A DNA stretch of 21,505 bases from a virus. The stretch spans positions 1 to 21,505 of IMG/VR virus record IMGVR_UViG_3300000313_000016, one strand, 5' to 3'. Position 1 is the first letter of the stretch. Every line of letters starts with the position of its first letter. The notes under the pieces are model-generated. The model saw only the letters and a list, made by a program, of their open reading frames with translations. It was not told where the DNA came from and searched no databases. The translations under genes and the position numbers were made by a program. Below are positions 2,949 through 16,342 of the stretch, in pieces.

Positions 2949-3848
2949 TCACGCCCATTCTATGACATGATACTGATCATCTTCGCGCCGAAAAATGTTG
3001 TTAAAAATCTTGTAGGTCTTATCCTTGTATATAACATTATCTTTAACCGACAAATCTGCTCGTCCACCAATCCAAAACAGACCATCAAACTCTCCAACCA
3101 TTCCTACCGGATCTGTTTCATAGAGCATAACCGGATATAACATATGATCCTCCATTGTGGCTTCCTGATTGGACTTTTTATAAATTGTAAGTGTATCTAC
3201 AGGTGCGGTATTGATGGGCCACGTCAAAAGCGTACTGCCGCCAAATCGCCAAACACCATCTGGTCGGCGAATACAAAGGGATGAATACCCTGCCTGTGAA
3301 ATCTGCGGACTAAGGAAAAGACTGTGTTCATTGCCTTTATTATTCCAAGCACTGCCATCATATGAACTACCACCAATTGCCATTGGATATGGATACTGTC
3401 GTTCAATAGCCACCGGCTTAAAAAATCCCAGATAAGCGCCCTCATACTGATTCGACATTTCTACGCGAAAAGTAATCCGGCTGGTGTTTGCCGTGAGCCA
3501 ATATGTCATAAATACGTCTTTGGCAAGTGGCACACAAGGCAATTTATCTTTATATATAGCACCCGGCTGCTCATACCATTCAAGATTTTCATCATATCCG
3601 CAGAAACCATTTAGGAGAATATTTTCCTGATCCGTTCCCTGCGCTTTGATTTTCATGCCGATATAAATTTCATCTTTACCATCACCGATACCTTTCAAAA
3701 TAACCTCTGTTGTATCAGAGGTAACAGCAGCTGGTCGCATCAGCTGCCATGCATTGCCAGCCGTAAAATTATTGCTATCGATGAGAAAAGACGTAATGTT
3801 TTGTAATAACTGCTTAACAGTTGTTGCCGTTGCGTTTAATACTGCCAA
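2949..3848 (-). CDS. Tail-tip or fibre protein, paralog 1
   Basis: A 299-residue protein starting with TTG (MAVLNATATTVKQLLQNITS). AAGGAGG at 3858-3864 lies 9 nt upstream and no ATG competes, so the TTG start is well supported. Recognisable blocks are an N-terminal helix, AGNAWQLMRP, EIYIGMKIK (60-68), WYEQPGA (91-97), MTYWLTANTSRITFRVEM (114-131), EGAYLGFFKP (136-145), YPYPMAIGGSS (152-162), RRPDGVWR (194-201) and a C-terminal GEFDGLFWIGG block (252-262). I recall this pattern from phage virion proteins encoded downstream of the tape measure, but I cannot give a domain name. Its place, first after the tape measure and the moron, suggests a tail-tip or distal-tail part. It is the simplest of three tandem paralogs. 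Confidence 0.82.
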   Translation of the reverse strand: MAVLNATATTVKQLLQNITSFLIDSNNFTAGNAWQLMRPAAVTSDTTEVILKGIGDGKDEIYIGMKIKAQGTDQENILLNGFCGYDENLEWYEQPGAIYKDKLPCVPLAKDVFMTYWLTANTSRITFRVEMSNQYEGAYLGFFKPVAIERQYPYPMAIGGSSYDGSAWNNKGNEHSLFLSPQISQAGYSSLCIRRPDGVWRFGGSTLLTWPINTAPVDTLTIYKKSNQEATMEDHMLYPVMLYETDPVGMVGEFDGLFWIGGRADLSVKDNVIYKDKTYKIFNNIFRREDDQYHVIEWA

Positions 3849-3872: not shown

Positions 3873-3907
3873 GGCATAAGAAAAAGCAGCCTATTTCTAA
3901 GCTGCTT
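3873..3907 (-). terminator. Intrinsic terminator after the secreted-protein moron
   Basis: On the minus strand AAGCAGC (3907-3901) pairs perfectly with GCTGCTT (3890-3884) across a 10-nt loop, followed directly by TTTTCTTATGCC (3884-3873). It lies 29 nt after the moron stop and just upstream of the next gene's Shine-Dalgarno. The 12-nt tail is identical in two other terminators of this window. Confidence 0.85.
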
Positions 3908-3935
3908 GTGTTATTTTATACTATTTATACTGTTT

Positions 3936-4433
3936 TTATCTACTTACTGTTTTGTCAGGAACTTCCAATACCTGCTTCCATTCTTTTAAAACTTTAGAAG
4001 GCACTTTAAAAACATCATCTGAAGCATTTTTAAAACTTATCCTAAATGTCACATCCTTTGCTGATTTTATTTTTTCAACAAGAAGCTCGGGGACATACAT
4101 ATCTGTAGAAGTACATAATATATTGTGATCAACTATATTACTGGATGTTGTTTTTACAGGAATCTTATAAATATCAGAACCATCATCAAATTTTACCTCT
4201 ATATAGTCTTCAGTAAAGAACCACCAATCGGTATCCATAATAGTAAATGTAAGATATATTTGATTATTATCCATTTTACTAAAAATAATAGAACTAAACC
4301 TATCAACATCTTGTACCATACTATAAGTCATTGATGAATTATCAAAAGAGTCCTTATGAGTTTTCACGCTTGCAAACACAGAAAACTGAAATACCAATAA
4401 GATCGCTAAGATTAAAAATAAAATCCTTTTCAT
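3936..4433 (-). CDS. Small exported protein of unknown function (moron)
   Basis: A 165-residue protein with a clear N-terminal signal peptide: K2-R3, a hydrophobic core (ILFLILAILLVFQFSVF) and a likely signal peptidase I site after VFA at residue 22. There is no lipobox cysteine. The mature part is soluble, with WWFF, EDYIEVKFDDG and a single Cys, and matches no family I can name. The start ATG has GGGAGG 6 nt upstream. The gene is visibly more AT-rich than its neighbours, and it has its own promoter and terminator, which is the definition of a moron inserted between the tape measure and tail-tip genes. An exported moron product might alter the host envelope, for example by superinfection exclusion, but that is inference from similar gene positions and not from sequence. 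Confidence 0.82.
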   Translation of the reverse strand: MKRILFLILAILLVFQFSVFASVKTHKDSFDNSSMTYSMVQDVDRFSSIIFSKMDNNQIYLTFTIMDTDWWFFTEDYIEVKFDDGSDIYKIPVKTTSSNIVDHNILCTSTDMYVPELLVEKIKSAKDVTFRISFKNASDDVFKVPSKVLKEWKQVLEVPDKTVSR

Positions 4434-4457
4434 AAAAAACCTCCCTATTTGTATTCC

Positions 4458-4486
4458 AGAATACCACTAATCAATATTTGCGTCAA
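4458..4486 (-). promoter_or_regulatory. Sigma-A type promoter of the secreted-protein moron
   Basis: On the minus strand TTGACG (4486-4481), a 17-nt spacer, then TATTCT (4463-4458) preceded by TGG, an extended -10. It starts right after the tape measure stop and precedes the moron ATG at 4433. The -10 lies inside a perfect palindrome GTATTC-CA-GAATAC (4451-4464), a possible operator. Confidence 0.75.
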
Positions 4487-4487
4487 A

Positions 4488-7400
4488 TCATTTCATTCTT
4501 CGATACACCTGACTATACAGTTTCGCATTTTTAATATTTTCCTTTTGAACTTCACTACGAATCAGCGATCGTCCATACGTATCAAAGACTCGCTGTCCAT
4601 CCACATAATTTTCAATGCGAACAGGTGAACTTACTTGCGTACCAAGGTCGGCAGTAAATGCTGCCATACCATTGCCTGCTGTTTGTGAGCCGGTTCTTCC
4701 TACAGCCCCACCTTTTGCAAATGCCGGCAACCGTACACGCATATTCGCAAATGTTCCATTATTTATCCGCGCCAAAGTCTCAAGACCATATTTTTTTACA
4801 GACACAGCATTAATAACGAACTCTCCGTGCGAAAGCCTTGAAAGTATGCTATCGCTAGTTCCAGTGCCCGCACCTGTAATTAAGCCACCATCTGCATGTT
4901 TTTGCAAAGCGCTAAAGCCATTCCATGTAAAATCATACGATGATCCTGCTGTAGAACTTCCAGATGAATTCTCACCAGCTGTTGCTGGTATTAAGCTAAT
5001 CGCCGATTGCATTGTCTGTGCAATATTATCAAAAAAGGTTTTCGTACGATTCGCAAATTCAAATGTTTGATTGCTGAAGGTAACCATAAAACTATCCATA
5101 TCGGTCGTTACTTTGCTTAAGCCATTTGCTTTGTCTATGGTTTTATCTGCATCCGCTACAGTCATTTGTTTTTTCAAGCCATCTTTTTTCGGGTACCACT
5201 TATCCATAAGGTTATCCCTAATATCTTCTGCAAACGCTTTTTGCATTGCTTTCAAAATCGTATTTGCCAAATTTTTAAAAGCTTCGCCCAAAGAATTTGC
5301 TTGTGTAATACCCTCTGTTAAGAATGTCAGCAATCCATCTTCAAGAGCTTGTTTTGCCGACATACGGATTTTATCTAAGAGTTGTGGTATTTGCTTTAAC
5401 TGGTCTAAGTACTTAACTTGGTGCTGGTTTTTATCGATTTCGGCTAAAATATTTTGCTTATTATTCTCTCTAGGTTTAATCAGGTTACTTCGTTCTTCAT
5501 CTGTTTTCACCGTCTTCAGCTTTTCTTCTAAATCTTGCTTGGCTGCCACATAATCTTTCCATCCTTGATCGACTTCTTTTTGATAAGTATCCTGATCCTG
5601 CTGATATTCCCAAGAATTTACCTGCTGCTTGGCCCGACTTTTCTGTCCTGTGGTCATCCAAAAATCTGAATCGATCATGTTGTTTTGCCAAGTAGCACGT
5701 TCCTTCACTGCCTGCCGAAATTTATCGAGCATGGAATGGAGGTCTTTTTTTACGCCATCGATTGTTTTTTTAATACTCTGAGCCAGTTCCGTATATCCCA
5801 TAGATGCTGCTTCTTGGCTGATTTCCTCTAATTTTTTGAGCTGTTCTTGGATCTTCGGCCCATAATTAGATACATTTATATAGTTAATATAATCCTCTGT
5901 TATATCGCCAACTTCATAAAAACCTGCAGCAAGTTTATCGTACATATCATCGGCATTATCTTTGACCGTGCGCATACCAATCTCAAGATTTTTCTTTGCC
6001 TGATTGCTTTCAAGATCTAGTTCCTTAGCATGTAAAACAATTTGTTCTTTACCGACCGCATCAGTGTTGCCTTCTGCTTTATATTTATTAATTTTTTCCT
6101 GCGATGCCTGTATTGCCTCTTTTATAGGAATACTGGAAATATCATTAATTAATTCTAAAAAAGCTTTATTGGTTGCATCAAGACGTTTTTCATTTTCTTT
6201 CGCTTTTTCATTCGCCTTAAGCCCAAGTTCAGAATTTACAGTTGGTGCCTGAAACCCTGAAAGAACATCCACCCCAGCAGCTTTTGCCATTTTATTAAAA
6301 TCTACAAAGCCTGTAGGCGTACCATAAGATTGTTGATAATCGGCATATTTTTGAATAGGTTTCGGTGTACCGTCATCGTAATGGCCAGACGATGACATAT
6401 ATTCATTGCCATTTCCTGTTGCCATAATGACGTGATTATCTTTATTTACAACAATCCCGTCTCCGGCTTTTGGTGTATATCCGCTAGAACCATCGACCCA
6501 AGCACCAACACGTTTAGCAACATCCATGAGCGCAGGAACCCAATCCCGCATATCATTGCCAACAGTGTCCGTAGTAGCTATTCCAGCTTTTTTCAGCCCG
6601 TCTTCTAACCCTGCAGCATCCCAGCTTTTCACAACAAATTGTGTGCACACAAAATCATCATACGTTTTTCCACTATCAATAATTTGCTGTCCGGCATTAA
6701 CAACGTTATTTCCCAAATCACTTTTAGCAGCCCGCATTTCTTGAATCTTAGGAGCATTTAATAGTTCAGTCGCTCGTGAAAGCAACTCTGCTGCATGCCC
6801 TTCTACGCTGCCAGCATAAGCTTCAGCTGCCGGACCACTCCCATTATAACGAGCTAACGCCGTATGTGTATTCCCATATTGATTTAGCAGTTCTATAAGA
6901 TATCGAACCCCGCCGTTTGCATTTGATTGCAAATCCCAAGGGTTGGCATTATCAGCTAAGCTCCTGGCATACTCCGATGTCAGCTGCATCAGTCCAATAC
7001 CACCATCATCAGAAGTTTTTACACTTCCATCATCATTCCATTGCCGGCGCGAAGATTCCTGCTCTGCCATTCCAAGAACTAAATCATAGGTTAGTTTTCC
7101 AGTCTTATCCGTATCTTTAAGATTCTGATAAGCATTATATAAAGCAGCTTCTTCCGGTGTCGATCCCTGTGGCAATTCCCGTCCAGTCGGAACCATACCG
7201 TTTGCATCAGCACGCATCTGATCACTTACACCTTGAACATGTTGACTATATCCGGCAATAACAGTTGCCACATCTTGCTGGGCTTCCGTTGCTTTCTGCA
7301 GGGCATTCGTATGTTTTCCCAATTCTATATTCAGTTTTTGTAAGGCCATATCTTTTTCTTGCTGCGTTTTATAAACTGTATTGTTTACAGCTTCAATCTG

Positions 7401-9239
7401 TTGATTGATATTATCAATATAAGTCTGTTCTGTATCGACTTTATTCTGTGCTTCCGCTTGCGAATATTCCTGCCATGAAATATTATCCTGCTTATACTGT
7501 ATAGACAATTTCTCTAAAGAATCTTTATAAGCTTGTATTTGTTGATCAAGAAAATCTTTTAACTGTGACTGTAAGACTTTTAATGCTTCCTGTGAATCTT
7601 TGGCATTGGCTTGTCCTTGCATAGAATTAGGCTTCGGCCCAGCATAATCTTGCCTTGCACCCTTGTTTTTAAGATCATCCAACAATTTCTGCAATTTGCT
7701 TTGTTCCGCACTATCATCATGGGTGCTTTTCACACTGCTAAAATCAAAAACTCCGGATTTATCCAGTGCATACCCAGCCCCAACCGCTACTGCACTAACT
7801 GCTAATGCCGCAGCAACACCAGCAGGTCCCGCCATTGCGCCAGTTAGTACATTTAATGCAACCTGAGCAACCGAAGCTGCCTTAATAGCTGCCTGCACTC
7901 CTACAATTGCAGTTCTTACAAGTTTAAAGGCTGCACACATCCCTTGAACCATGGTAATAATCTTTTCAATAATAAAAAAGCTCATTAAAGTATCAACAAT
8001 AACATCAATGATGACTTTCGTTGCACCAAAAGAGCCGTTGGCTTTATCAACACCACCTTTTAAAAAGTTAACGACTGCATCCGCTACCGCAATAATCCCC
8101 TCAAGCCATTCTCCAATTCGGCTTGTAATTTCTCCAGCTGTCGGACCTAAAGCAACAATCAAGCTGCCCACACGGCCAAGACCATCGATAATTTCACTCA
8201 ATAATTGACTTGCCTTATCAAAAGAGGCCAGTGCCTCTTCCGAAAAATAAAACTTTCCGTCATCATCGTAAGCACCGAAAAGCTCAGTGAACTCAACGAA
8301 TAAGTCCTTGGCTTTTTCTATGCCCAGCTGAATTTTTACGATTGTCAGTAAAACTCCAGTATCTTCCGGCACGCCCCCCTGTCCATTAATGGCATCAGCA
8401 AACTGATTTGACCAGTTGCGAACTTTAGTCAAACCTGTTTCCAACGACTGAAAAAGCGGATTCAAAATGAATCCGCCCATAGACATGAAGTTATCTTTAA
8501 TTGTTGAAAGCAACCCTAGCATCCGATCGGCCATTTTCTGGGACATTCCACCGAACTTCTCGTCCATGCCTTCCATTAAAGCACTAATTGCCGTGTCTGC
8601 ATCAATACTAGCATCACCAATATTTTTCATTTGGTCTGCAGTTAAATGTAATTTATCTGCTAAAATTTGTTGAGCTGGAATTCCTGCTTCTGTAAGCTGC
8701 AGGAGTTCATCACCCATGACACGCCCTTTAGCTTTAATTTGCCCAAGTGCAAGCGTAATTCTTTGAATACCTTCCGTTCCAAGACCAAGCCCCGCAGATG
8801 CATCACCTATAGAACGAAGCATCTTAAGCGAAGTCTCTGCATCAAAACCAAAGGCCAGAAGTTTTTTACCTGCATCTGTAACACCTGGAAGGTCAAACGG
8901 CGTATCTGCTGCAATCTTTTTCAGATCACCAAGATACTGCTTGGCAAGTTCTGTACTACCCAAAAACACTTCAAAAGCAGCTTCATTGTTTTCAAGATTC
9001 GCATTGTATTTCAAAATAGAACCTACGGTTCCGTCAATCACTGTTTTTAGCATCGAAAGGCCAGCATATGCGCCTGTGACAATCATGCCAAGATTGGCCA
9101 GCTTAGACGAAAAACCACCAACCGCCTGCGAACTTTTTTCCGAAGATTCTTTTGCTCCTTTGATTGCATTAACAACCTGCTGCAGCTTTTCAACAAAGCC
9201 TTCATTCTCCGCAGTAATGTGAACTTTAATATCTGGCAC
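4488..9239 (-). CDS. Tape measure protein with lytic transglycosylase and NlpC/P60-like domains
   Basis: A 1583-residue protein; in long-tailed phages the tape measure sets tail length and enters the cell envelope during DNA ejection. It starts with GTG, 9 nt after AGGAGAG. Residues 1-260 hold the usual tape measure N-terminus (GTEGIQRITLALGQIKAKG at about 154-172). Residues about 350-490 are hydrophobic, with probable membrane segments. Residues 515-660 form coiled coil. Residues about 700-830 are a soluble lytic transglycosylase domain, with E728 in AEQESS, GGIGLMQLT (746-754) and YNGS (798-801). Residues about 850-985 look like an NlpC/P60 or CHAP-type cysteine peptidase, with C865 in DFVCTQF and H936 in DNHVIMATG after AGDG. 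Residues 1010-1320 are again helical, and the end is glycine- and serine-rich (FADGG-type repeats). Two wall-cutting domains in one tape measure fit local digestion of peptidoglycan during infection. Confidence 0.93.
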   Translation of the reverse strand: MPDIKVHITAENEGFVEKLQQVVNAIKGAKESSEKSSQAVGGFSSKLANLGMIVTGAYAGLSMLKTVIDGTVGSILKYNANLENNEAAFEVFLGSTELAKQYLGDLKKIAADTPFDLPGVTDAGKKLLAFGFDAETSLKMLRSIGDASAGLGLGTEGIQRITLALGQIKAKGRVMGDELLQLTEAGIPAQQILADKLHLTADQMKNIGDASIDADTAISALMEGMDEKFGGMSQKMADRMLGLLSTIKDNFMSMGGFILNPLFQSLETGLTKVRNWSNQFADAINGQGGVPEDTGVLLTIVKIQLGIEKAKDLFVEFTELFGAYDDDGKFYFSEEALASFDKASQLLSEIIDGLGRVGSLIVALGPTAGEITSRIGEWLEGIIAVADAVVNFLKGGVDKANGSFGATKVIIDVIVDTLMSFFIIEKIITMVQGMCAAFKLVRTAIVGVQAAIKAASVAQVALNVLTGAMAGPAGVAAALAVSAVAVGAGYALDKSGVFDFSSVKSTHDDSAEQSKLQKLLDDLKNKGARQDYAGPKPNSMQGQANAKDSQEALKVLQSQLKDFLDQQIQAYKDSLEKLSIQYKQDNISWQEYSQAEAQNKVDTEQTYIDNINQQIEAVNNTVYKTQQEKDMALQKLNIELGKHTNALQKATEAQQDVATVIAGYSQHVQGVSDQMRADANGMVPTGRELPQGSTPEEAALYNAYQNLKDTDKTGKLTYDLVLGMAEQESSRRQWNDDGSVKTSDDGGIGLMQLTSEYARSLADNANPWDLQSNANGGVRYLIELLNQYGNTHTALARYNGSGPAAEAYAGSVEGHAAELLSRATELLNAPKIQEMRAAKSDLGNNVVNAGQQIIDSGKTYDDFVCTQFVVKSWDAAGLEDGLKKAGIATTDTVGNDMRDWVPALMDVAKRVGAWVDGSSGYTPKAGDGIVVNKDNHVIMATGNGNEYMSSSGHYDDGTPKPIQKYADYQQSYGTPTGFVDFNKMAKAAGVDVLSGFQAPTVNSELGLKANEKAKENEKRLDATNKAFLELINDISSIPIKEAIQASQEKINKYKAEGNTDAVGKEQIVLHAKELDLESNQAKKNLEIGMRTVKDNADDMYDKLAAGFYEVGDITEDYINYINVSNYGPKIQEQLKKLEEISQEAASMGYTELAQSIKKTIDGVKKDLHSMLDKFRQAVKERATWQNNMIDSDFWMTTGQKSRAKQQVNSWEYQQDQDTYQKEVDQGWKDYVAAKQDLEEKLKTVKTDEERSNLIKPRENNKQNILAEIDKNQHQVKYLDQLKQIPQLLDKIRMSAKQALEDGLLTFLTEGITQANSLGEAFKNLANTILKAMQKAFAEDIRDNLMDKWYPKKDGLKKQMTVADADKTIDKANGLSKVTTDMDSFMVTFSNQTFEFANRTKTFFDNIAQTMQSAISLIPATAGENSSGSSTAGSSYDFTWNGFSALQKHADGGLITGAGTGTSDSILSRLSHGEFVINAVSVKKYGLETLARINNGTFANMRVRLPAFAKGGAVGRTGSQTAGNGMAAFTADLGTQVSSPVRIENYVDGQRVFDTYGRSLIRSEVQKENIKNAKLYSQVYRRMK

Positions 9240-9245
9240 GAACGA

Positions 9246-9533
9246 TCACTCTCCTATCCGGCGCATTTTCTGCAGCATCGCCGCTATTTTATTGTAGTCA
9301 CCAAAAGCACCGCCAATGCCGGCAACCACACCTTCAATAAAATCTGCCTGCTCATACATTTCTTCCGCAATAATCTTTTCATAAAAAAGTTTGACCTCGG
9401 GCATACTATATTGATTCAACACCACATCTTTTGTGTGTCCATGTGAAATCAGCTTTTGCAATACTTCATAAGGTGTTACTTCCTTTGTTTCACGCTTGGT
9501 TTCTTCTTCATCATTGGGGCCAAGCGTTTGTCG
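9246..9533 (-). CDS. Tail assembly chaperone, -1 frameshift extension (GT-like)
   Basis: A 95-codon segment with no good start of its own. The only early start is a TTG at 9461 with no Shine-Dalgarno. It is open in the -1 frame from the slippery site at 9533-9539. If ribosomes slip there, the chaperone's first 144 residues are joined to RQTLGPNDEEETKRE and onward, giving about 239 residues. The extension ends 6 nt before the tape measure GTG. This matches the lambda G/GT arrangement, in which the long form binds both tail tube subunits and the tape measure. The segment includes EVLQKLISHGHTKDVVLNQY and an end rich in glycine, then KMRRIGE. I infer the frameshift from layout and sequence; no product is seen directly. 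Confidence 0.75.
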   Translation of the reverse strand, partial: RQTLGPNDEEETKRETKEVTPYEVLQKLISHGHTKDVVLNQYSMPEVKLFYEKIIAEEMYEQADFIEGVVAGIGGAFGDYNKIAAMLQKMRRIGE

Positions 9534-9964
9534 AAAAAAGACTTGTTTACGTCATATACTGCTTTTGACAGGTTATACATATCATCCATCATTAAAGCTT
9601 TAATAGCTTCCACGGACATCGCTGTACTGGCTGAAACCAGTTCAGAAATCGCCTGTATAAGTTCTTCTGGATTTTTTACCCCATCGATAAAACCAGCAAT
9701 CAACATTAATTTTTGTGAAAGACTCACCTTTTCAGCTTCTGCTGTTTCTTCCCCATTTTCTTTAGTATTTTCTTTTTGCAGTACTTTAAGCACCTCATCC
9801 AATGCATTCACATTTTCCACAACAGTTTTCATAATGATGGACAACGGTTTTGCCACTTGAATTGCTCCTGCCCAGGAATATGGATGTACAACAATATTTT
9901 TCCCATCAATTTTTAATTCTTCCTGTGCAAAGAGAATTTCTGATTCATTAATTTTTTTTGCCAT
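9476..9964 (-). CDS. Tail assembly chaperone, short form (G-like)
   Basis: A 162-residue acidic, helical protein starting MAKKINESEILFAQEEL. GGGAG lies upstream of the ATG at 9964. It sits between the major tail protein and the tape measure, the fixed place for siphovirus tail chaperones that hold the tape measure soluble while tube subunits assemble. Residue features are IVVHPYSWAGAIQVAKPL in the N-terminal half, an acidic KENGEETAEAE linker (68-78), and a C-terminal KSFFDKRLAPMMKKK. A heptamer T TTT TTC encodes F143-F144 and leads into a second open frame. A neighbouring hairpin 20 nt upstream of its Shine-Dalgarno may lower its transcription relative to the tail tube gene. Confidence 0.82.
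   Translation of the reverse strand: MAKKINESEILFAQEELKIDGKNIVVHPYSWAGAIQVAKPLSIIMKTVVENVNALDEVLKVLQKENTKENGEETAEAEKVSLSQKLMLIAGFIDGVKNPEELIQAISELVSASTAMSVEAIKALMMDDMYNLSKAVYDVNKSFFDKRLAPMMKKKPSVKQRK
9533..9539 (-). promoter_or_regulatory. Probable -1 ribosomal frameshift slippery site
   Basis: On the minus strand the codons TCT TTT TTC contain the heptamer T TTT TTC, which fits X XXY YYZ exactly in the chaperone frame. The -1 frame is open from there to 9246. It lies about 54 nt before the zero-frame stop, as expected for lambda-like tail chaperone frameshifts. Confidence 0.7.
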
Positions 9965-9989
9965 ATTATTTCTCCCTCATATTATAAAA

Positions 9990-10011
9990 ATAAGCCGCCC
10001 CGAAGGACGGC
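9990..10011 (-). terminator. UUCG-capped terminator hairpin between tail tube and chaperone genes
   Basis: On the minus strand GCCGTCC (10011-10005) pairs with GGGCGGC (10000-9994), with one G-U pair, around a UUCG tetraloop closed by C-G, followed by TTATTTTTA. On the other strand the same stem is followed by ACTTTTT, so it could act in both directions. It begins 5 nt after the tail tube stop and probably works as a leaky attenuator. Confidence 0.75.
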
Positions 10012-10016
10012 ACTTT

Positions 10017-11141
10017 TTATGCATTAACCATTTTAAAGAACGGTTCATCCGGATGATTGATTCGGTCAGCCAGAACAGTCATCTCAAGAGTGAACGATCC
10101 CCAGTCATCGCCAATCAGTCCGATATCACCGCTTGGCGTGATCGATACATGCCAAATTTCAACCGTATAAGCGCGTCCCATGGACGGATCGCCAATAAAG
10201 AGCAGATCCCCTTCAATAGCCCGAACTGCACCACCCATGACCTTTGGATATTTACCATCCGGCACATTATAGCTGATTCGCACCTTGCTCCCGTCCGGAA
10301 TACCCGACGTATCCGGAATCGGGATGATACCAGCACGCAGCTGGGATTTATCAAGAATAAAATCTGTACCAGCAACATAGCTTCCACCTGCAGCTGTAAC
10401 CTTGATTTCATAAATTTCACCAGCAATCAAATCCTGTCCGCTCTTCCCCGGTGCAAACATGACCGTAACTCCCTCATCCAAAGTTTGTACTGTACCAGTT
10501 GCTTTTACAGCCGCACCCGGGATAGCAGCGATGCCCTTCTGCCATGTAAATTCCGCATCCGTGATGGTGCCAGAAGCTGCATTCGCCTTTGTAATCTTTA
10601 TATAATAAGCATCGTTCGTAGTTCCGATATAACTCCCACCGGAAATCAGCTTGGCTGTCCCAGGAGTTCCTATTGCGGCATATGAAGTAACGGCCCCGAT
10701 AGCTGCAGGTACAGATGCAACCGCTGCAATTGCCACATTGGTAATATTTCTATAGGGAACGGAAATCGGCGAGCCCAGATTGGCCGTATATACTTCATTC
10801 GCAACAGTCTTTGCAATCTGCTCTTCCACGCCTTCCTCACCATATAGCGATAATGCAAGGTTATAAGGCGTGATTTCATTGATTTCTAACGTGGCCTTAT
10901 AGGCCATCGATTTCACGGCTTCCGCATACAGTTCTCTGGCACCATCCATAGAACTGTATTTTTGTATCTTTTCGATATTTGGCGTAAGGTTGAATTTAGG
11001 AACGTTCCCTAAGTGCCTGCGAAGAAGCGGATTCCCCGCATAATCCCAACGCCGAAAATAGTTTTTCCCTGCACCAAGCAGCAGGTTCTTTGCTGATGGT
11101 GTGTTCTGTGCAAATCTTTGTAAATCAAATTTAAAATTCAT
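10017..11141 (-). CDS. Major tail tube protein
   Basis: A 374-residue protein beginning MNFKFDLQRFAQNTPS. Its ATG overlaps the previous stop (TAATG) and has GGAGG 8 nt upstream. Features are LLLGAGKNYFRRWD (20-33), typical of tail tube N-termini in Firmicutes siphoviruses, and a C-terminal block (YTVEIWHVSITPSGDIGL, about 325-342, then LEMTVLAD) typical of tube proteins. Between them residues about 150-255 form a Gly/Ala/Thr-rich beta-type segment (AYYIKITKA, LDEGVTVMFAPGKSGQ) that looks like an inserted surface domain. Hundreds of copies would stack to make the tube. The FDLQRFA tag is one I recall at the N-terminus of structural and secreted proteins of Negativicutes; its function is unknown to me. 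A stable hairpin follows the gene, consistent with high expression relative to downstream genes. Confidence 0.85.
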   Translation of the reverse strand: MNFKFDLQRFAQNTPSAKNLLLGAGKNYFRRWDYAGNPLLRRHLGNVPKFNLTPNIEKIQKYSSMDGARELYAEAVKSMAYKATLEINEITPYNLALSLYGEEGVEEQIAKTVANEVYTANLGSPISVPYRNITNVAIAAVASVPAAIGAVTSYAAIGTPGTAKLISGGSYIGTTNDAYYIKITKANAASGTITDAEFTWQKGIAAIPGAAVKATGTVQTLDEGVTVMFAPGKSGQDLIAGEIYEIKVTAAGGSYVAGTDFILDKSQLRAGIIPIPDTSGIPDGSKVRISYNVPDGKYPKVMGGAVRAIEGDLLFIGDPSMGRAYTVEIWHVSITPSGDIGLIGDDWGSFTLEMTVLADRINHPDEPFFKMVNA

Positions 11142-11569
11142 TAACTATTCCTCCATTCTATATTTACAACAATACGTGAGGTTGATGTTGGACGATCGAT
11201 ATCTCCATCTGAAATAACATCCGGCACACTTACTTTTGATGCGATTCCAAGTTCCTGCAATACCTTCTGTGGCCACTCTTTTAGCACACCAAGAGCTTTG
11301 TTCTGATAAATGTCTTGCAGATCATACGCCTGCGCCGGATCTGAATTATTGCTTTTTAATCCAATATCAATCCATAGCTTGACGTTACCTGATGTCGCTC
11401 TTTGAATATTAACCTCTGTCTCATCATCCCACGTGATTTCCATACAAGGGTATTTCTTCCCAGTGCCTTTCGTTCCAGCATAAATGTACAGACTTTCATC
11501 TTGGATTTGCTCATTCAAAAAGGCCGCCAGACTTTTCGCCAGCGGCCACCACATTATAATTCTATCCAT
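11141..11569 (-). CDS. Putative tail terminator / tail completion protein
   Basis: A 142-residue protein starting MDRIIMWWPLAKSLAAFLNE. It has the size, place (directly before the tail tube gene) and alternating helix-strand pattern of gpU-like or minor capsid tail terminators, which cap the tail tube and dock it to the head. Segments include YPCMEITWDDETEVNIQR and a C-terminal RIVVNIEWRNS strand. GGGGGTAGAT precedes the ATG at 11569; the ATG at residue 6 is a less likely start. The stop overlaps the next ATG. No motif is strong enough to name the family, so the call rests on order and size. Confidence 0.6.
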   Translation of the reverse strand: MDRIIMWWPLAKSLAAFLNEQIQDESLYIYAGTKGTGKKYPCMEITWDDETEVNIQRATSGNVKLWIDIGLKSNNSDPAQAYDLQDIYQNKALGVLKEWPQKVLQELGIASKVSVPDVISDGDIDRPTSTSRIVVNIEWRNS

Positions 11570-11573
11570 ATAT

Positions 11574-11981
11574 CTACCCCCGATGTACTTTTACCGACAT
11601 AGGGAACGTCCTACGACTTGCAGATTTCCCTCCGGTAAATGTATCTGCTGTAATCTGCGCTTCCAAGCGATTGACCTCAGATGCATATACCCGCCGTTTC
11701 AGCTCATAGGCATCTGCCCCTTCTGCTGTTCCGGTTGTGTTCATCATGGATTGCTTTTTCGCTGTTTCCATAAGTGCATAGGACTCAGCAAGTTCGGCAA
11801 TTTTGAAAGGTGTCGGATCTAGTATCTCATCAATATCAACATTCAGACTTTCTGCTAAATCCTCAATATACTTGCTGGATTTTGCGATATGCTTTTGTAA
11901 AATGCAGTCTTTGAGCATTTCATCATCTACTGTGGCTGCATCAAAATAAACACGGCCAAGGTATTTCTCTTCATCTGCCAT
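11574..11981 (-). CDS. Putative head-tail connector protein
   Basis: A 135-residue mainly helical protein starting MADEEKYLGRVYFDAATV. Its ATG overlaps the previous stop as TAATG, so translation is coupled. The helical run from about residue 20 to 110 (KHIAKSSKYIEDLAESLNVD, IAELAESYALMETAKKQ) resembles small head-tail adaptor proteins of the gp6/gp15 type. Genes nearby (capsid, gp10-like, tail terminator) fit a connector. Usually the adaptor gene comes before the HK97 gp10-like gene, whereas here it comes after, so the assignment is moderate. No catalytic motif is visible. Confidence 0.5.
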   Translation of the reverse strand: MADEEKYLGRVYFDAATVDDEMLKDCILQKHIAKSSKYIEDLAESLNVDIDEILDPTPFKIAELAESYALMETAKKQSMMNTTGTAEGADAYELKRRVYASEVNRLEAQITADTFTGGKSASRRTFPMSVKVHRG

Positions 11982-12451
11982 TAAAGCCCCGCCTCCTTTG
12001 TGGCCTTATCAATATGCCGGGCAAATATCGCATTGATTTCCACCCGGCTCCGCTCTGCCGCTTCATATAAAAATTCGTCTTTTTCAGTTCCCGGATGATG
12101 CACTTTCTTGGCAAAAATAAATTTATTACCAGCACCAGCCCAACGAAGGGAATGTTTGTCTTTTGGAACAATAACATGTGGCCGAGTTCCGCCATGCACC
12201 CATTTTCCATAAGGTGCCACACCTGAATCGATCTCAATGACCCCTTCACACTTATTGCCATCCACATGATAGTCAACTGCTCGTTCCAGCATTCCTGTTT
12301 TCGTTCTGAATCGATGTTTTTCTCTAGCCCCTTGCTGCACGAGTCGGCAAGATTCTAATAATGCACGCCGCATTTCTTCGACTGCGGCATTCGGTGCCCG
12401 TTCCATTGCCTGCAAGACAGCAGCTGCGTCAAATTGGATTTTCATATCCAT
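11981..12451 (-). CDS. HK97 gp10-like head-tail joining protein
   Basis: A 156-residue protein with the signature of the HK97 gp10 family: HRFRTKTGMLERAV (46-59), YGKWVHGGTRPHVIVPK (80-96), SLRWAG and FIFAKKVHHPG (111-121), ending in a helix with DKATKEAGL. This family contributes to head-tail joining or tail completion. Two in-frame ATGs occur (12451 and 12445); the first follows the capsid stop by 2 nt. Spacing and overlap with the next gene show one operon. Confidence 0.8.
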   Translation of the reverse strand: MDMKIQFDAAAVLQAMERAPNAAVEEMRRALLESCRLVQQGAREKHRFRTKTGMLERAVDYHVDGNKCEGVIEIDSGVAPYGKWVHGGTRPHVIVPKDKHSLRWAGAGNKFIFAKKVHHPGTEKDEFLYEAAERSRVEINAIFARHIDKATKEAGL

Positions 12452-12453
12452 AC

Positions 12454-13509
12454 TTAGCCAACCTTCGCAATAAATACGCTGTCGATGGCTTCAAATGACG
12501 GAAGAACAATTTCTGACACAATCGTCTGTGTGTTGACCGGATGTGGTTCTTTGATTGTCGTCACTGCAATACCAGTATTGACGATACTGGTATCTGCCAC
12601 CGATTGCCCACTCATCAAATCTGCTTCCTCCGGCGTTGTCCCATAATAAGTCGTGCCTAAATTGCCTTCCGGTAAAAGCGTGAAATAGTTATCCGGATAG
12701 AATTGTTCCCCAGCTCCGCCAACCTCCATGGAAAACATTTTGTTATAAACCGAAACCTGCAGGTTAAGTTTTTCCGAAAGATATGATTTAAGCATTCCAT
12801 CCGTCATAATGATGTTCTGCCCGCCAATCGGATTCATATCCAATCGGATTTTCTTGTTTTTGAGCAAATATCCCCAAGTTTTACGGGTGCAAATTGCCCG
12901 CGTTGGACGATTACCCGTATCCGTTTCCACTTGAGTCTGCCACCCCTCAATAATCTCAACAACATCTGAGTTTTCAGTGTCTGAAAATTTATTCGTGCCT
13001 GTAAGCACGGCCCTATGCTTATTCGGGAACTTATAGTCATAAGCATATCCCTGACCATCTTTTCCCGTGACCTGGATTTTCCCCATAGACAAAAGCTGCA
13101 TCCGCATGCGCTCAGCCACGACGTCTGCACCATCTATAAGATTTTGGGCGTCTTTATAGATTTTTTGGATAATCGGATCTACAACCGCCCGATTCATACC
13201 AGCCACAACCTTTAAAAGTTCCATGCGTTCTTTTTCACCAATCCTAAAGCTTTCGCGAAAGAACGGCATTTCTGTTTCGATTTTTGCAAGCCCGATGCGA
13301 TCTCTAACCGGAGCTTTCGCATCAAATGCACTTGGTGCCAAGGATACGGCTAAACCATTAAATCCGCGAATCCATGAAAGATCCAGCCCCACCTGCTTCT
13401 GCGATGGGAAAAGCAAGCTCCCTAAATATGGAATTTTATTGCTCGGGTTTTCCGTGTAATACGTGCTGATCAACGGCGCCGCGACTAAATCAAAAATTGT
13501 TTTTGCCAT
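12454..13509 (-). CDS. Major capsid protein, gpE family
   Basis: A 351-residue protein starting MAKTIFDLVAAPLISTYYTE, with AGGAGG 9 nt before the ATG. The N-terminus, the KIPYLGSLLFPSQKQVGLDL block (25-44), PVRDRIG and FRESFRIGEKERM, the central VVAERMRMQLLSMGKI helix, and the end IVLPSFEAIDSVFIAKVG match the lambda gpE-type capsid family (HK97 fold). Length is close to lambda gpE (about 340). It forms the icosahedral shell. The preceding genes for a decoration protein and a scaffold fit lambda-like head building. I see no separate prohead protease in the window; the JAMM domain of the minor head protein is the only peptidase-like domain among the head genes. Confidence 0.9.
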   Translation of the reverse strand: MAKTIFDLVAAPLISTYYTENPSNKIPYLGSLLFPSQKQVGLDLSWIRGFNGLAVSLAPSAFDAKAPVRDRIGLAKIETEMPFFRESFRIGEKERMELLKVVAGMNRAVVDPIIQKIYKDAQNLIDGADVVAERMRMQLLSMGKIQVTGKDGQGYAYDYKFPNKHRAVLTGTNKFSDTENSDVVEIIEGWQTQVETDTGNRPTRAICTRKTWGYLLKNKKIRLDMNPIGGQNIIMTDGMLKSYLSEKLNLQVSVYNKMFSMEVGGAGEQFYPDNYFTLLPEGNLGTTYYGTTPEEADLMSGQSVADTSIVNTGIAVTTIKEPHPVNTQTIVSEIVLPSFEAIDSVFIAKVG

Positions 13510-13525
13510 GTAAACATTCCTCCTA

Positions 13526-14239
13526 TTATCCTAAAAATGTAATTTGTTTGAGAGCTGCCATATCTGCGGCACTCGGTGGTACCGGAATTTTATTAACATC
13601 GATATAGCCATGAATGATCATGGCGCTTAAAGCCGGTCCATACGTAACGTCGGTGTCATTCATCAAAACGCCTTCTGCACTACCGCCAGCTCCAGCCACG
13701 CCACCCGTAAGCGCAGTAGCAGTAAGAGCAGCAACAGTGCCTGCGCCGGAATTCCCCTTTGCAGGAACTACATCAATAAGCTTACGAGCCTCCGCATCAT
13801 CCATAATCGCACTGACCACGTCATTTGCCACCGTAATAATTGTTTTGCTGTCATCCGTGGCGAGATTCACCGTGATGGTTTTATCCGCAACGGCAATCGC
13901 TAAAACCTTATCGGCAGCTGCCGGATCTACAAAAGCTACTTTGATTGTATTTCCCGAAACGCCCTCTGCCTTTGCCGTAAATACTAAATTACTGTTTTTA
14001 GCCGTAAAAGCAGTGGTAAACGATGCCGCAACAATACCGAGATTCACGTCGGCGACCGGTTTACTCGGATCAAGCAATACTCCATTGCCGCCCACAATCG
14101 TACCTGCTGCCACAATTTTATTACCATCTTCATCAGCAACGACTCCGGCATCATCCACGGTTACTGTCATGGCAACATAGTGATCTGGAAACTTTAAAAT
14201 CTGCTTTGTTCCTAAATAATTCGTTTGCGTAAATTTCAA
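13526..14239 (-). CDS. Head decoration protein (gpD-like) with inserted domain
   Basis: A 237-residue protein starting with TTG (MKFTQTNYLGTKQILKFP); AAGGGGG lies 8 nt upstream and no ATG is available nearby. The N-terminal 60 residues (ADEDGNKIVAAGTIVGG) and the C-terminal 50 (GVLMNDTDVTYGP then ALSAMIIHGYIDVNKIP) form a decoration-type fold that stabilises the expanded capsid. Between them residues about 68-185 are an extra Ala/Val/Thr-rich beta module (SNLVFTAKAEGVSGNTIKV, DKTITVNLATDD) of the kind also found inserted in other phage surface proteins. It lies between scaffold and capsid genes. The insert could be exposed on the virion surface; that is inference. Confidence 0.8.
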   Translation of the reverse strand: MKFTQTNYLGTKQILKFPDHYVAMTVTVDDAGVVADEDGNKIVAAGTIVGGNGVLLDPSKPVADVNLGIVAASFTTAFTAKNSNLVFTAKAEGVSGNTIKVAFVDPAAADKVLAIAVADKTITVNLATDDSKTIITVANDVVSAIMDDAEARKLIDVVPAKGNSGAGTVAALTATALTGGVAGAGGSAEGVLMNDTDVTYGPALSAMIIHGYIDVNKIPVPPSAADMAALKQITFLG

Positions 14240-14252
14240 TTTTTATTCCCCC

Positions 14253-14984
14253 TTATTCAAAATATCCGGCTAATGCTTTCGCATCACCTTCGGATTGCGC
14301 ATTGCTTTTGGCCAAAGATTTCACAAAAGCTACATCGGGCGAATCTGCCCCATTTCCACCAACATTCCCTGGCAACAAACTACCCGCCCCGGGATTCTGC
14401 GTATTGGCCACAAGCTTCGGATGCGCAGTCAAAAAATCTTTAACAAAATCATCTACTTTAGAATTTTTATCATCATTGAATGTGATGGATTCATCCTCTT
14501 CACTGACAACCATTTTACCCAGCAGCATATCCACGATAAGCGATGGATCATCTGCATTGTTTTTCGTGAGTGCTTCCATAAGTGTGGTTCGTTTCATGCC
14601 ATCAAAACGTTTTCCCCTCTCATCGGCTATCTGCGCTTTATGCACGGTATCCTGCTCTGAAAGTTTACCTTTCAATTTGGCAATTTGTTTTTGTAACGCT
14701 GGATCTGCTGACTTATCTTTTAAAGCCTTAGAAATTGCTTCGTCAAGACTATCATCGTCTGCATCTACATCAACTCCGAGAGCTTCAAGAACCTTCTCTG
14801 CTCTTTCACTGGAAGCCGTTGCTTTGTCGAAATCCTCCTTGGCTTTTATTTTCAGCGTCTTTAAATCTCCCTTTGCTTTAGAAATTTCGCCATCTTTCGC
14901 AGTCACAAAGTCTCGTAAAGCCTTGGCTGCTGCCGCATCGGTTGTTTCTAAAAGCGCTATAATCTGTTCTAATGTCAAATTCAT
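14253..14984 (-). CDS. Capsid scaffold protein
   Basis: A 243-residue, highly charged, largely coiled-coil protein starting MNLTLEQIIALLETTDAAAA. I chose the ATG at 14984 because AAAGGAG lies just upstream; an open extension to 15011 has no Shine-Dalgarno. Helical heptad-like sequence runs from about residue 25 to 130 (KGDLKTLKIKAKEDFDK, KQIAKLKGKLSEQDTVHKAQ). The C-terminal part is Gly/Asn/Pro-rich and then helical (VAFVKSLAKSNAQSEGDAKA), as in scaffolds whose C-terminus binds capsid protein. Place before decoration and capsid genes supports this. No protease motif is visible. Confidence 0.8.
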   Translation of the reverse strand: MNLTLEQIIALLETTDAAAAKALRDFVTAKDGEISKAKGDLKTLKIKAKEDFDKATASSERAEKVLEALGVDVDADDDSLDEAISKALKDKSADPALQKQIAKLKGKLSEQDTVHKAQIADERGKRFDGMKRTTLMEALTKNNADDPSLIVDMLLGKMVVSEEDESITFNDDKNSKVDDFVKDFLTAHPKLVANTQNPGAGSLLPGNVGGNGADSPDVAFVKSLAKSNAQSEGDAKALAGYFE

Positions 14985-15011
14985 CGACTCCTTTTTTCTA
15001 AAAATAAACAT

Positions 15012-15046
15012 AAAAAATACCGCTAGGAGAATTCTCCCGCGGTAAT
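15012..15046 (-). terminator. Terminator hairpin upstream of the scaffold gene
   Basis: On the minus strand TACCGC (15044-15039) pairs with GCGGTA (15023-15018). The inner GGAGAATTCTCC (15026-15037) is a perfect palindrome, and the stem is followed by TTTTTT. It lies 28 nt upstream of the scaffold start. A short leader frame runs through it (see 15023-15058). Confidence 0.65.
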
Positions 15047-15058
15047 TTGTGCAAACAA
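15023..15058 (-). other. Possible leader peptide overlapping a terminator
   Basis: AAGGTGG (15067-15073) is followed after 8 nt by TTG and an 11-codon frame, MFAQITAGEFS, whose TAG stop (15023-15025) lies in the 3' arm of the terminator hairpin. A ribosome translating it would cover most of the stem. This suggests attenuation of scaffold and capsid transcription, but such short frames also arise by chance. Confidence 0.3.
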
Positions 15059-15084
15059 TAGCACCACCACCTTATTTTGTTTTT

Positions 15085-15115
15085 GGCATAAGAAAAGGCA
15101 ACTCTTCACCTGCCT
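15085..15115 (-). terminator. Intrinsic terminator after the LysE gene
   Basis: On the minus strand AGGCA (15115-15111) pairs with TGCCT (15100-15096) around a 10-nt loop, followed by the shared tail TTTTCTTATGCC (15096-15085). The stem overlaps the LysE stop codon. The stem is short, so it may be leaky. Confidence 0.65.
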
Positions 15116-15708
15116 CAAAGCGAAATTAAACTAAACACACCAAAACTTGTAATTATAATACCTGAAAATTGATTTACCAATTTTAATCGTTTTTGGTCAA
15201 AATTATGGCGTAAGGCATTGACCATTCCGCTTAATATTAACCACCAAATCATAGAACCCAAAAAGACACCCAACACTAAGGAAAATGAATTTCCGATAGC
15301 ACTTCCACCTAATCCTGCAAAAACAGCAGCAAATGACATAATGGTTAGTGGATTAGTTATAGTCAAAAACAAAGTAGATATATATGAACCAACAATGCCT
15401 TCGCCTCGTGCATCTGCAGCAATTTGAGAAGGAATGGATTTAAATGTCGTATAACCTAAATAAATTAAAAAAGCGCCACCTATAATCCTCATGTAGGATT
15501 GGTTATCTAAAAGAAAAGTAGATACAGCTGAAATCCCCAACGCAGCTATAGAACCGTATATTGCATCAGCTGTAGCAGCACCTAACCCTGATATAAATCC
15601 AATTATCATCCCACTGGCGAGAGTACGCCGAATACACAGCACTCCAATTGGGCCTACCGGTGCGGCAATAGATATACCCAAAATTAAGCCTTTTATTAAA
15701 AACAACAT
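15115..15708 (-). CDS. LysE/RhtB-family exporter (moron)
   Basis: A 197-residue integral membrane protein of the LysE translocator family, which exports amino acids or related small molecules across the cytoplasmic membrane. The N-terminus has ISIAAPVGPIGVLCIRRTL and GLGAATADAIYG (41-52), the family signature. About six hydrophobic segments are visible, and the length equals the usual 190-210 residues. GGAGG (15718-15722) lies 9 nt before the ATG. It has its own sigma-A promoter and terminator and sits between the minor head and scaffold genes, a place where virion genes are expected. It is therefore cargo. Substrate cannot be told from sequence. It could benefit a lysogen or act on the envelope during infection. 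Confidence 0.88.
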   Translation of the reverse strand: MLFLIKGLILGISIAAPVGPIGVLCIRRTLASGMIIGFISGLGAATADAIYGSIAALGISAVSTFLLDNQSYMRIIGGAFLIYLGYTTFKSIPSQIAADARGEGIVGSYISTLFLTITNPLTIMSFAAVFAGLGGSAIGNSFSLVLGVFLGSMIWWLILSGMVNALRHNFDQKRLKLVNQFSGIIITSFGVFSLISL

Positions 15709-15848
15709 TTTTCTAATCCTCCACTCTTAATTATACTATTGGAGTTTCTTTTAACGTTTAAAATATCTTCCTGTTTTTATCCTATGGAAAAACTTTAGTT
15801 GTTTCCTAATTCAACATTCTAAATCCAAAACTGCTCATATTGGAGTTA

Positions 15849-15877
15849 ATTATACACATTTCTTCAATTATGGTAAA
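15849..15877 (-). promoter_or_regulatory. Sigma-A type promoter of the LysE gene
   Basis: On the minus strand TTTACC (15877-15872), a 17-nt spacer, and a consensus TATAAT (15854-15849). Transcription would give a leader of about 135 nt before the ATG at 15708. The elements GTATAATTAA and AACTCCAATA, found at this promoter, recur at 15727-15746 in swapped order. Confidence 0.75.
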
Positions 15878-15885
15878 GAAATTAT

Positions 15886-16017
15886 TTAATAATTCACAGG
15901 ATGTTTTAATAAAAAACTTTCCTGTTTTCTAAAGCGGCTTTCAGGCTCATTAAATCCATCCCAGCCACATAAAATCTTTTCCCAATTTCCTCCAACTTGA
16001 TACTTTTGCAATTCTTT
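15886..16017 (-). pseudogene. Orphan fragment of a MuF minor head protein C-terminus
   Basis: An open stretch of 43 codons without a start reads KELQKYQVGGNWEKILCG, WDGFNEPESR and then FRKQESFLLKHPVNY before a stop. The first 27 residues match the intact minor head protein at residues about 356-383 (KGLQKYQVGGNWEKLLRG...). DNA identity is about 77 of 81 bases (15937-16017 against 16968-17048), and similarity ends sharply on both sides. It is therefore a broken duplicate. It may be either the old C-terminus displaced by the present one or the remains of another exchange cassette. Confidence 0.8.
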
Positions 16018-16069
16018 CGAAATTGACCTCCTAAATATATTTTTGTAGGAAAGGCATATACCCTATCTA

Positions 16070-16105
16070 TTATTCCAATGCTGCCCCTTCGATTACTATT
16101 TTCAC
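16070..16105 (-). pseudogene. Possible gene relic of 11 codons
   Basis: AGGAGG (16116-16121) is followed after 10 nt by GTG and MKIVIEGAALE, then two stops in a row. MKI-I-EG is a common start of small phage and mobile-element proteins as I recall them, so this may be the 5' end of a lost gene. The evidence is weak because the frame is so short. Confidence 0.3.
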
Positions 16106-16128
16106 AAATACGCTCCCTCCTAAAAATG

Positions 16129-16164
16129 GGCATAAGAAAAGACAGCCTATAAAATAAGCTGTCT
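16129..16164 (-). terminator. Intrinsic terminator after the minor head / 55-residue gene pair
   Basis: On the minus strand AGACAGC (16164-16158) pairs perfectly with GCTGTCT (16146-16140) across an 11-nt loop, followed by the shared tail TTTTCTTATGCC (16140-16129). It lies 10 nt after the stop of the 55-residue gene. Confidence 0.85.
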
Positions 16165-16174
16165 AAAAGTTAAA

Positions 16175-16342
16175 TTATATTACTGCTATTTTTTTCTTTT
16201 TCCTATTATCCGATCCATTTGCAGGTCTTTTCGGAGCCACCTTATGCTTGTACAAAGGATCACCTGCCCGCATCCGTTCAAATTCATCATGTGTCAATGG
16301 TCGATCATTAATACCACTACGATGTTTATTTTCCTTTAACAT
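16175..16342 (-). CDS. Small basic protein of 55 residues, unknown function
   Basis: The frame starts MLKENKHRSGINDRPLTHDE and ends in a lysine-rich tail (KKKKIAVI). AAGGAG is about 6 nt upstream of the ATG, inside the last codons of the minor head gene, and the two frames overlap by 17 nt; such an ideal site argues for a real coupled gene. It contains FERMRAGDPLYKHK, charged and probably helical. No signal peptide or membrane segment is visible. It is the only gene between the JAMM-domain fusion and the terminator, the slot taken by immunity genes in MuF toxin systems. At 55 residues it is small for that, and a small virion or regulatory protein is an equal possibility. Confidence 0.7.
   Translation of the reverse strand: MLKENKHRSGINDRPLTHDEFERMRAGDPLYKHKVAPKRPANGSDNRKKKKIAVI

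Follow-up and report, generated by a model that had tools for sequence, protein, structure and literature searches.

Why should three terminators with unrelated stems run into the same 12 nucleotides? This question is raised by a viral DNA stretch of 21,505 nt (IMG/VR record IMGVR_UViG_3300000313_000016), referred to here as the window. An earlier note on this DNA had proposed that the common tail is a recombination hinge used when morons are gained, or a binding site for an RNA-directed regulator. We examined the tail in the window, in other phages and in host genomes, and the evidence suggests that it is probably part of an intrinsic terminator.

Three hairpins and one tail in the window

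The description of three hairpins sharing one 12-mer was borne out by exact matches. The sequence TTTTCTTATGCC occurred three times in the 21.5-kb window, on the minus strand only, while the number expected by chance from 100 dinucleotide shuffles was 0. The elements are as follows.

3873..3884, minus strand: conserved tail 1, TTTTCTTATGCC (exact match)
3884..3907, minus strand: terminator hairpin 1, 10 pairs (scan; fold z -2.8)
15085..15096, minus strand: conserved tail 2, TTTTCTTATGCC (exact match)
15095..15116, minus strand: terminator hairpin 2, 7 pairs, overlapping the LysE stop codon (scan; fold z -0.6)
16129..16140, minus strand: conserved tail 3, TTTTCTTATGCC (exact match)
16140..16164, minus strand: terminator hairpin 3, 11 pairs (scan; fold z -4.1)

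The stems were unrelated in sequence, and each hairpin terminated at the first T of the tail. RNA folding showed that hairpins 1 and 3 were clearly stable and that hairpin 2, behind LysE, was the weakest of the three; the best fold at site 2 paired a 5′ arm GGCA with the UGCC of the tail. A stable hairpin directly 5′ of a U-rich tract, as in an intrinsic terminator, was thus present, weakly so at site 2. The closest relative of the window phage was a Propionispira arboris prophage (capsid protein 90% identical), and the capsid protein was 73% identical to that of a Megamonas MAG. Because these are its capsid relatives, the phage probably has a negativicute host.

Units on both sides of the tails

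The genes adjoining the first two tails are listed below.

2949..3848, minus strand: core structural gene downstream of tail 1 (phrog_687 structural protein, 6.7e-46)
3936..4433, minus strand: 165-aa exported protein, moron (ORF; promoter-like site 4458-4486)
14253..15011, minus strand: head scaffolding protein (phrog_194, 3.1e-10)
15023..15058, minus strand: 11-codon upstream ORF, start TTG, 3′ end overlapping an inverted repeat (sequence; kept before the scaffold gene in relatives)
15115..15708, minus strand: LysE-type translocator, moron (PF01810, 1.5e-23)

Promoter scans placed a promoter-like site, TTGACG-17-TATTCT, at 4458-4486 directly after the tape measure gene, and another upstream of LysE at 15849-15877; such sites barely exceed shuffle level. 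The 165-aa protein matched no Pfam or PHROG family. The variable gene preceding the 2949-3848 gene, and those preceding its relatives in L084, L085 and L167, start with a signal-peptide-like or membrane-anchor-like stretch in 4/4 phages, so exported products seem favoured before this type of structural gene.

The tails had been placed just before the Shine-Dalgarno of the next gene. This applied cleanly at site 1 only. At site 2 the ribosome-binding site (RBS) serves the 11-codon ORF upstream of the scaffold gene (15023-15058), and at site 3 it serves a vestigial ORF, also of 11 codons, that is followed by a displaced gene remnant. Relatives L084, L006, L007 and L009 carry an equivalent leader with an 11-codon ORF before the scaffold gene; in the window (15019-15058) and in these equivalents the ORF overlaps an inverted repeat, possibly for translational control. 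The Paenibacillus-type relatives L099, L103, L068, L076, L090, L096, L108 and L110 have a common structured-looking leader upstream of the scaffold gene, with the layout CGTCC..GGACG followed by ACATCACCGGACGCGACCGGG..AAAAAGCGAAGATGA; Rfam gave no match for that of L103.

The pre-scaffold position also differs in content. A skipping-rope RNA (RF02924) lies between the minor head region and the scaffold gene at L084:8275-8370, L007:4786-4881 and L085:8110-8205, where it is the unit immediately 5′ of the pre-scaffold hairpin and tail. It is a distinct structured RNA, unlike the hairpin-tail element. None was detected in the window, where LysE takes its place.

The view that all three tails follow accessory units did not extend to site 3, where the unit is not a free moron. 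It is made up of the variable C-terminal part of the minor head (MuF-type) protein and a 55-aa ORF, and is fused to a core gene.

15937..16017, minus strand: displaced duplicate of the minor head linker (blastn, 95% identity over 81 bp to 16968-17048)
16175..16342, minus strand: 55-aa ORF, putative immunity gene for the MuF C-terminal domain (ORF; position; 54-aa counterpart in L084)
16326..16943, minus strand: variable C-terminal region of the minor head protein, JAMM-like signature HNHP..S..D (alignment of six relatives)
16944..18113, minus strand: conserved N-terminal minor head (MuF-type) region (phrog_1657, 2.1e-26; phrog_115, 4e-11)

Alignment of minor head proteins from six relatives showed about 390 conserved residues with divergent C-termini beyond. 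PBECR2, Ntox50 and DUF6883 domains were found on the one conserved N-terminus, and a JAMM-like region in the window and L084. The family of relatives therefore shows the arrangement of MuF polymorphic toxins, the comparison system, in which a conserved head-protein N-terminus carries a swappable C-terminal toxin domain (PMC5576092). Pfam had no match for the window's minor head C-terminus or the 55-aa ORF, which may be the immunity gene for this C-terminus. In the region 15886-18113 of the window, a displaced remnant of an older C-terminus lies downstream of the minor head gene, flanked by the 81-bp direct repeat. The 95%-identical linker copy, which lies downstream of tail 3, indicates that the older C-terminus was replaced via recombination at the linker, not at the tail.

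The tail in other phages and in hosts

The 12-mer followed by AGGAGG within 2-16 nt, a pattern that makes the Shine-Dalgarno a requirement of the main scan, was found in at least 118 IMG/VR stretches, compared with 26 for a scrambled 12-mer. Among the matches listed, almost all had a hairpin, each different and each closing at the first T of the tail. The tail precedes core late genes (HNH endonuclease, terminase, scaffold, tape measure). Downstream genes among these listed matches formed 41 clusters in which core late genes predominated, and upstream genes formed 90 clusters, mostly single accessory genes; the exception was the HNH matches, which have one common upstream regulator family. Some loci reach 62-66% G+C, and for some the nearest named phages are those of Arthrobacter or Bifidobacterium. 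Among named phages, Erysipelothrix phi1605 and two from Acutalibacteraceae carry the exact element before HNH. Relatives have the related tails TTTTATTATGCT/A and TTTTTTATGCC, and in C. difficile phiCD418 the GP20 gene, which occupies the scaffold position, is preceded by TTTTGTTATGC. The tail is thus found again ahead of core genes in many viruses of bacteria of Gram-positive type, and is neither private to the window phage nor restricted to accessory borders. A literature search for the 12-mer or its core returned nothing relevant.

It had been argued that a tail common after most host terminators would be a generic terminator feature. The 12-mer was instead rare in hosts. It occurred twice in the P. 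arboris genome (4.3 Mb), both times inside the related prophage, and five times in a Megamonas genome, two of them within a prophage. Among terminators predicted by simple rules, TTATGC was present in 23 of 209 (11%) on the late strand of related phages, in 0/67 on the other strand and in 1/133 from two host samples (<1%), a late-strand enrichment with p 1.8e-6 against the pooled others. TGC at the release point was likewise in excess in phage late-strand terminators (41 vs 5.6 in shuffles), and more weakly in host terminators (14 vs 5.0).

The tail is also present in a few host terminators. Selenomonadaceae contained 206 exact 12-mers in 121 genomes, compared with 122 for the reversed control (1.7 times), and 12 of 31 inspected copies passed a strict hairpin test, as against 3.7% of TTTT sites. 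Some of these are bidirectional symmetric terminators of the form GGCATAAGAAAA-hairpin-TTTTCTTATGCC. Several copies sit where housekeeping genes end; the adjoining genes are pfkA-, hslO/ffh- and hemL-like, names assigned by reading the translations. Given both the phage late-strand enrichment and these host positions, phages favour the tail as a terminator feature but do not have it to themselves. A DNA uptake-type repeat was rejected, as there are only about 1.7 exact copies per Selenomonadaceae genome.

Function or exchange: the HNH leader

Leaders of the HNH gene were gathered by protein similarity, blind to the tail, giving 74 distinct leaders, of which 39 contained the exact 12-mer. The gene order in this group is regulator gene, -10 element, a gap of about 20-23 nt, hairpin, tail, RBS and HNH. 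Both flanks are conserved and neither is a moron. The stem showed compensatory double changes at 6 of 11 pairs. Across 30 aligned leaders T9 and C11 were invariant and tail positions 5-8 variable, and the distance from hairpin to T-R-C was identical in all 53 scored leaders (those with T-R-C within 7-11 nt of the stem, among 64 examined), so that T9-R10-C11-C12 is held at a fixed distance from the hairpin. As no moron is exchanged at this place, conservation of the tail there needs a function. Rfam gave no match above threshold for this leader.

A -10 element with at most one mismatch was found in 37 of 49 HNH leaders (shuffle mean 12.9), and a consensus -35 in only 4 of the 37. Since the -10 is frequent and the consensus -35 rare, the promoter is probably of an activator-dependent type. 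Leaders L359-L438, about 60-160 nt before HNH, combine the fixed-distance -10 and few -35 matches with short upstream direct repeats such as TTGCAACACTTTGCAAC, which suggests a promoter-proximal terminator behind a late promoter that depends on an activator.

This layout invites the idea that the tail binds a phage late regulator or antiterminator enabling late transcription past the terminators. The HNH element stands directly after the apparent late promoter and behind a late-regulator-type gene ("transcriptional regulator" in named phages), and in phages TTATGC is seen on the late strand only. However, the tail is also present in host terminators next to housekeeping genes, phages of two phyla carry it, which makes one common regulator unlikely, and the DNA beyond the release point is absent from the terminated RNA. 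No candidate factor of this kind was identified, and nothing was found in support of the RNA-directed regulator of the earlier note. We therefore regard a regulator-binding site as very unlikely.

Another possibility is that hairpin and U-rich stretch form a leader element that protects the mRNA or governs ribosome access. The compact order of hairpin, tail, Shine-Dalgarno and gene at most sites would suit it, and at the HNH leader the hairpin would fall near the 5′ end of the late mRNA. But the Shine-Dalgarno spacing was imposed on most matches by the search pattern, host copies lie at convergent gene ends without an RBS, and the fixed hairpin distance of T9-R10-C11 is left unaccounted for, all of which makes this explanation highly improbable.

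Three further candidates were rejected. An alternative fold in which the tail pairs with the 3′ arm (GGGC with GCCC) occurs in the HNH class, but is missing at many sites and broken by ACCC or GCAC variants. Pairing of the U tract with the Shine-Dalgarno is possible for any U tract and hence non-specific. A hidden leader peptide from the ATG of the tail would not keep its frame, because the tail-to-Shine-Dalgarno spacing varies.

Possible exchange at the tail

In the hinge proposal, tail, spacer and RBS form a short common sequence where morons, together with their hairpins, replace one another before core genes, and exchange itself maintains the sequence. The proposal found partial support: recurrence across phages, conserved genes 3′, variable units 5′ and a homology edge at the tail. 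Homology between the window and L084, L006 and L009 resumes precisely where tail 2 has its first T, and that with L084 and L085 precisely at the first T of tail 1 (W6410 and W17622, respectively, in reverse-complemented window coordinates). The pre-scaffold site holds LysE in the window but skipping-rope RNA in L084, L007 and L085. Unrelated downstream clusters are linked, in 14 pairs (mean of 0.6 in column shuffles), by identical runs of at least 10 nt after the tail, and the tail-spacer-RBS block common to unrelated genes reaches 25 nt; one such block, TTTTCTTATGCCCATTTTTAGGAGG, is common to window site 3 and unrelated genes elsewhere.

Under the terminator reading set out below, hairpins and morons are exchanged but the core gene downstream retains its tail, spacer and RBS, which would also bring the tail to the edge of homology. 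An exact edge is likewise expected if tail and RBS merely stay with the downstream gene, and the shared runs are partly A-rich sequence and Shine-Dalgarno, which may have arisen by convergence. The tail did not behave as a marker specific to moron borders, present there and absent elsewhere: it is kept at the HNH leader, at fixed spacing and without exchange, and in host terminators beside housekeeping genes, some of them bidirectional. It is nearly always sense-oriented behind a hairpin, and is found in GC-rich actinobacterial-type phages. Rarely conserved upstream genes made up 78% at TTATGC-type terminators (n=18) and 57% at other phage terminators (n=120), not a clear excess. Moreover, the site 3 insertion went through the 81-bp minor head linker. 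It is thus unlikely that exchange maintains the tail, although a junction may be a secondary role of it, and occasional exchange there fits.

A probable extended intrinsic terminator

We consider it probable that the tail elements are intrinsic (Rho-independent) terminators with an extended release site, favoured in phage late operons. The tail was most likely kept for aiding RNA polymerase to stop, not as a gene-insertion mark. Direct observations behind this reading are the fixed spacing of T9-R10-C11, the covarying hairpin and the phage late-strand enrichment. The 12 nt would comprise a 9-nt U-rich tract (UUUUCUUAU) and the first bases beyond the release point (GCC), with the hairpin free to vary. 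Intrinsic terminators release RNA 7-9 nt past the hairpin (PMC8060035), therefore the conserved R-C-C would fall just beyond the RNA end. With U9 at the 3′ end and a purine following, RNA polymerase would pause long enough for the hairpin to close, and the letters just past the U tract would thereby be selected as part of the stop signal.

Some facts sit less easily with an extended terminator. Most host terminators work with the host RNA polymerase without the tail, and TTATGC is missing from about 89% of those on the phage late strand. At positions 11-12 the C is kept more strictly than a simple U-to-purine pause requires, and the second window hairpin is weak in isolation.

Comparable elements are known. 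In Bacillus subtilis, some intrinsic terminators have an interrupted distal U tract and depend on NusA/NusG (PMC8060035). The present elements resemble intrinsic terminators, these included, in the hairpin, the 9-nt U-rich tract, a predicted release 7-9 nt past the stem and the interrupted distal U tract, but differ in that the interruption and the GCC past the release point are conserved between phages with unrelated hairpins. No description of an extended tail common to several terminators was found in the literature searched. Moron terminators are known in lambdoid phages. As in these and in Salmonella phage L, whose intra-operon terminators have roles stated as unknown (PMC8022706), a terminator lies within the late operon and a putative moron, with a promoter-like site and a terminator, stands amid core genes. 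PeSLs of T4-like phages, reported as promoter-terminator cassettes proposed for module shuffling, are likewise repeated terminator-bearing intergenic elements at mosaic borders; by comparison, the hairpin here is not conserved and a fixed-distance -10 is seen only in the HNH leader class.

The terminators stand in two kinds of position. After accessory genes with apparent promoters of their own, they would keep moron transcripts of the lysogen out of the head and tail genes; others stand between what appears to be the late promoter and the late gene that comes first. Late-promoter transcription would have to pass them, by antitermination or partial read-through. A bolder extension, which we think very unlikely, is a dedicated class of late-operon terminator common to phages of the Bacillota and the Actinomycetota. 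A late transcription factor or a modified RNA polymerase would read U9-R-C-C in it; host-style transcription would then end at these terminators in the lysogen, and in the lytic cycle the same sites would be passed.

Late-operon terminators are common in phages, and their role is openly called unknown. At the HNH leader, naturally occurring variants of the conserved release-site sequence share a single homologous position, which makes the question of the tail testable in terms of termination strength and late-transcription passage. In phages without annotation, the tail also offers a simple string by which to locate module junctions and promoter-proximal late leaders.
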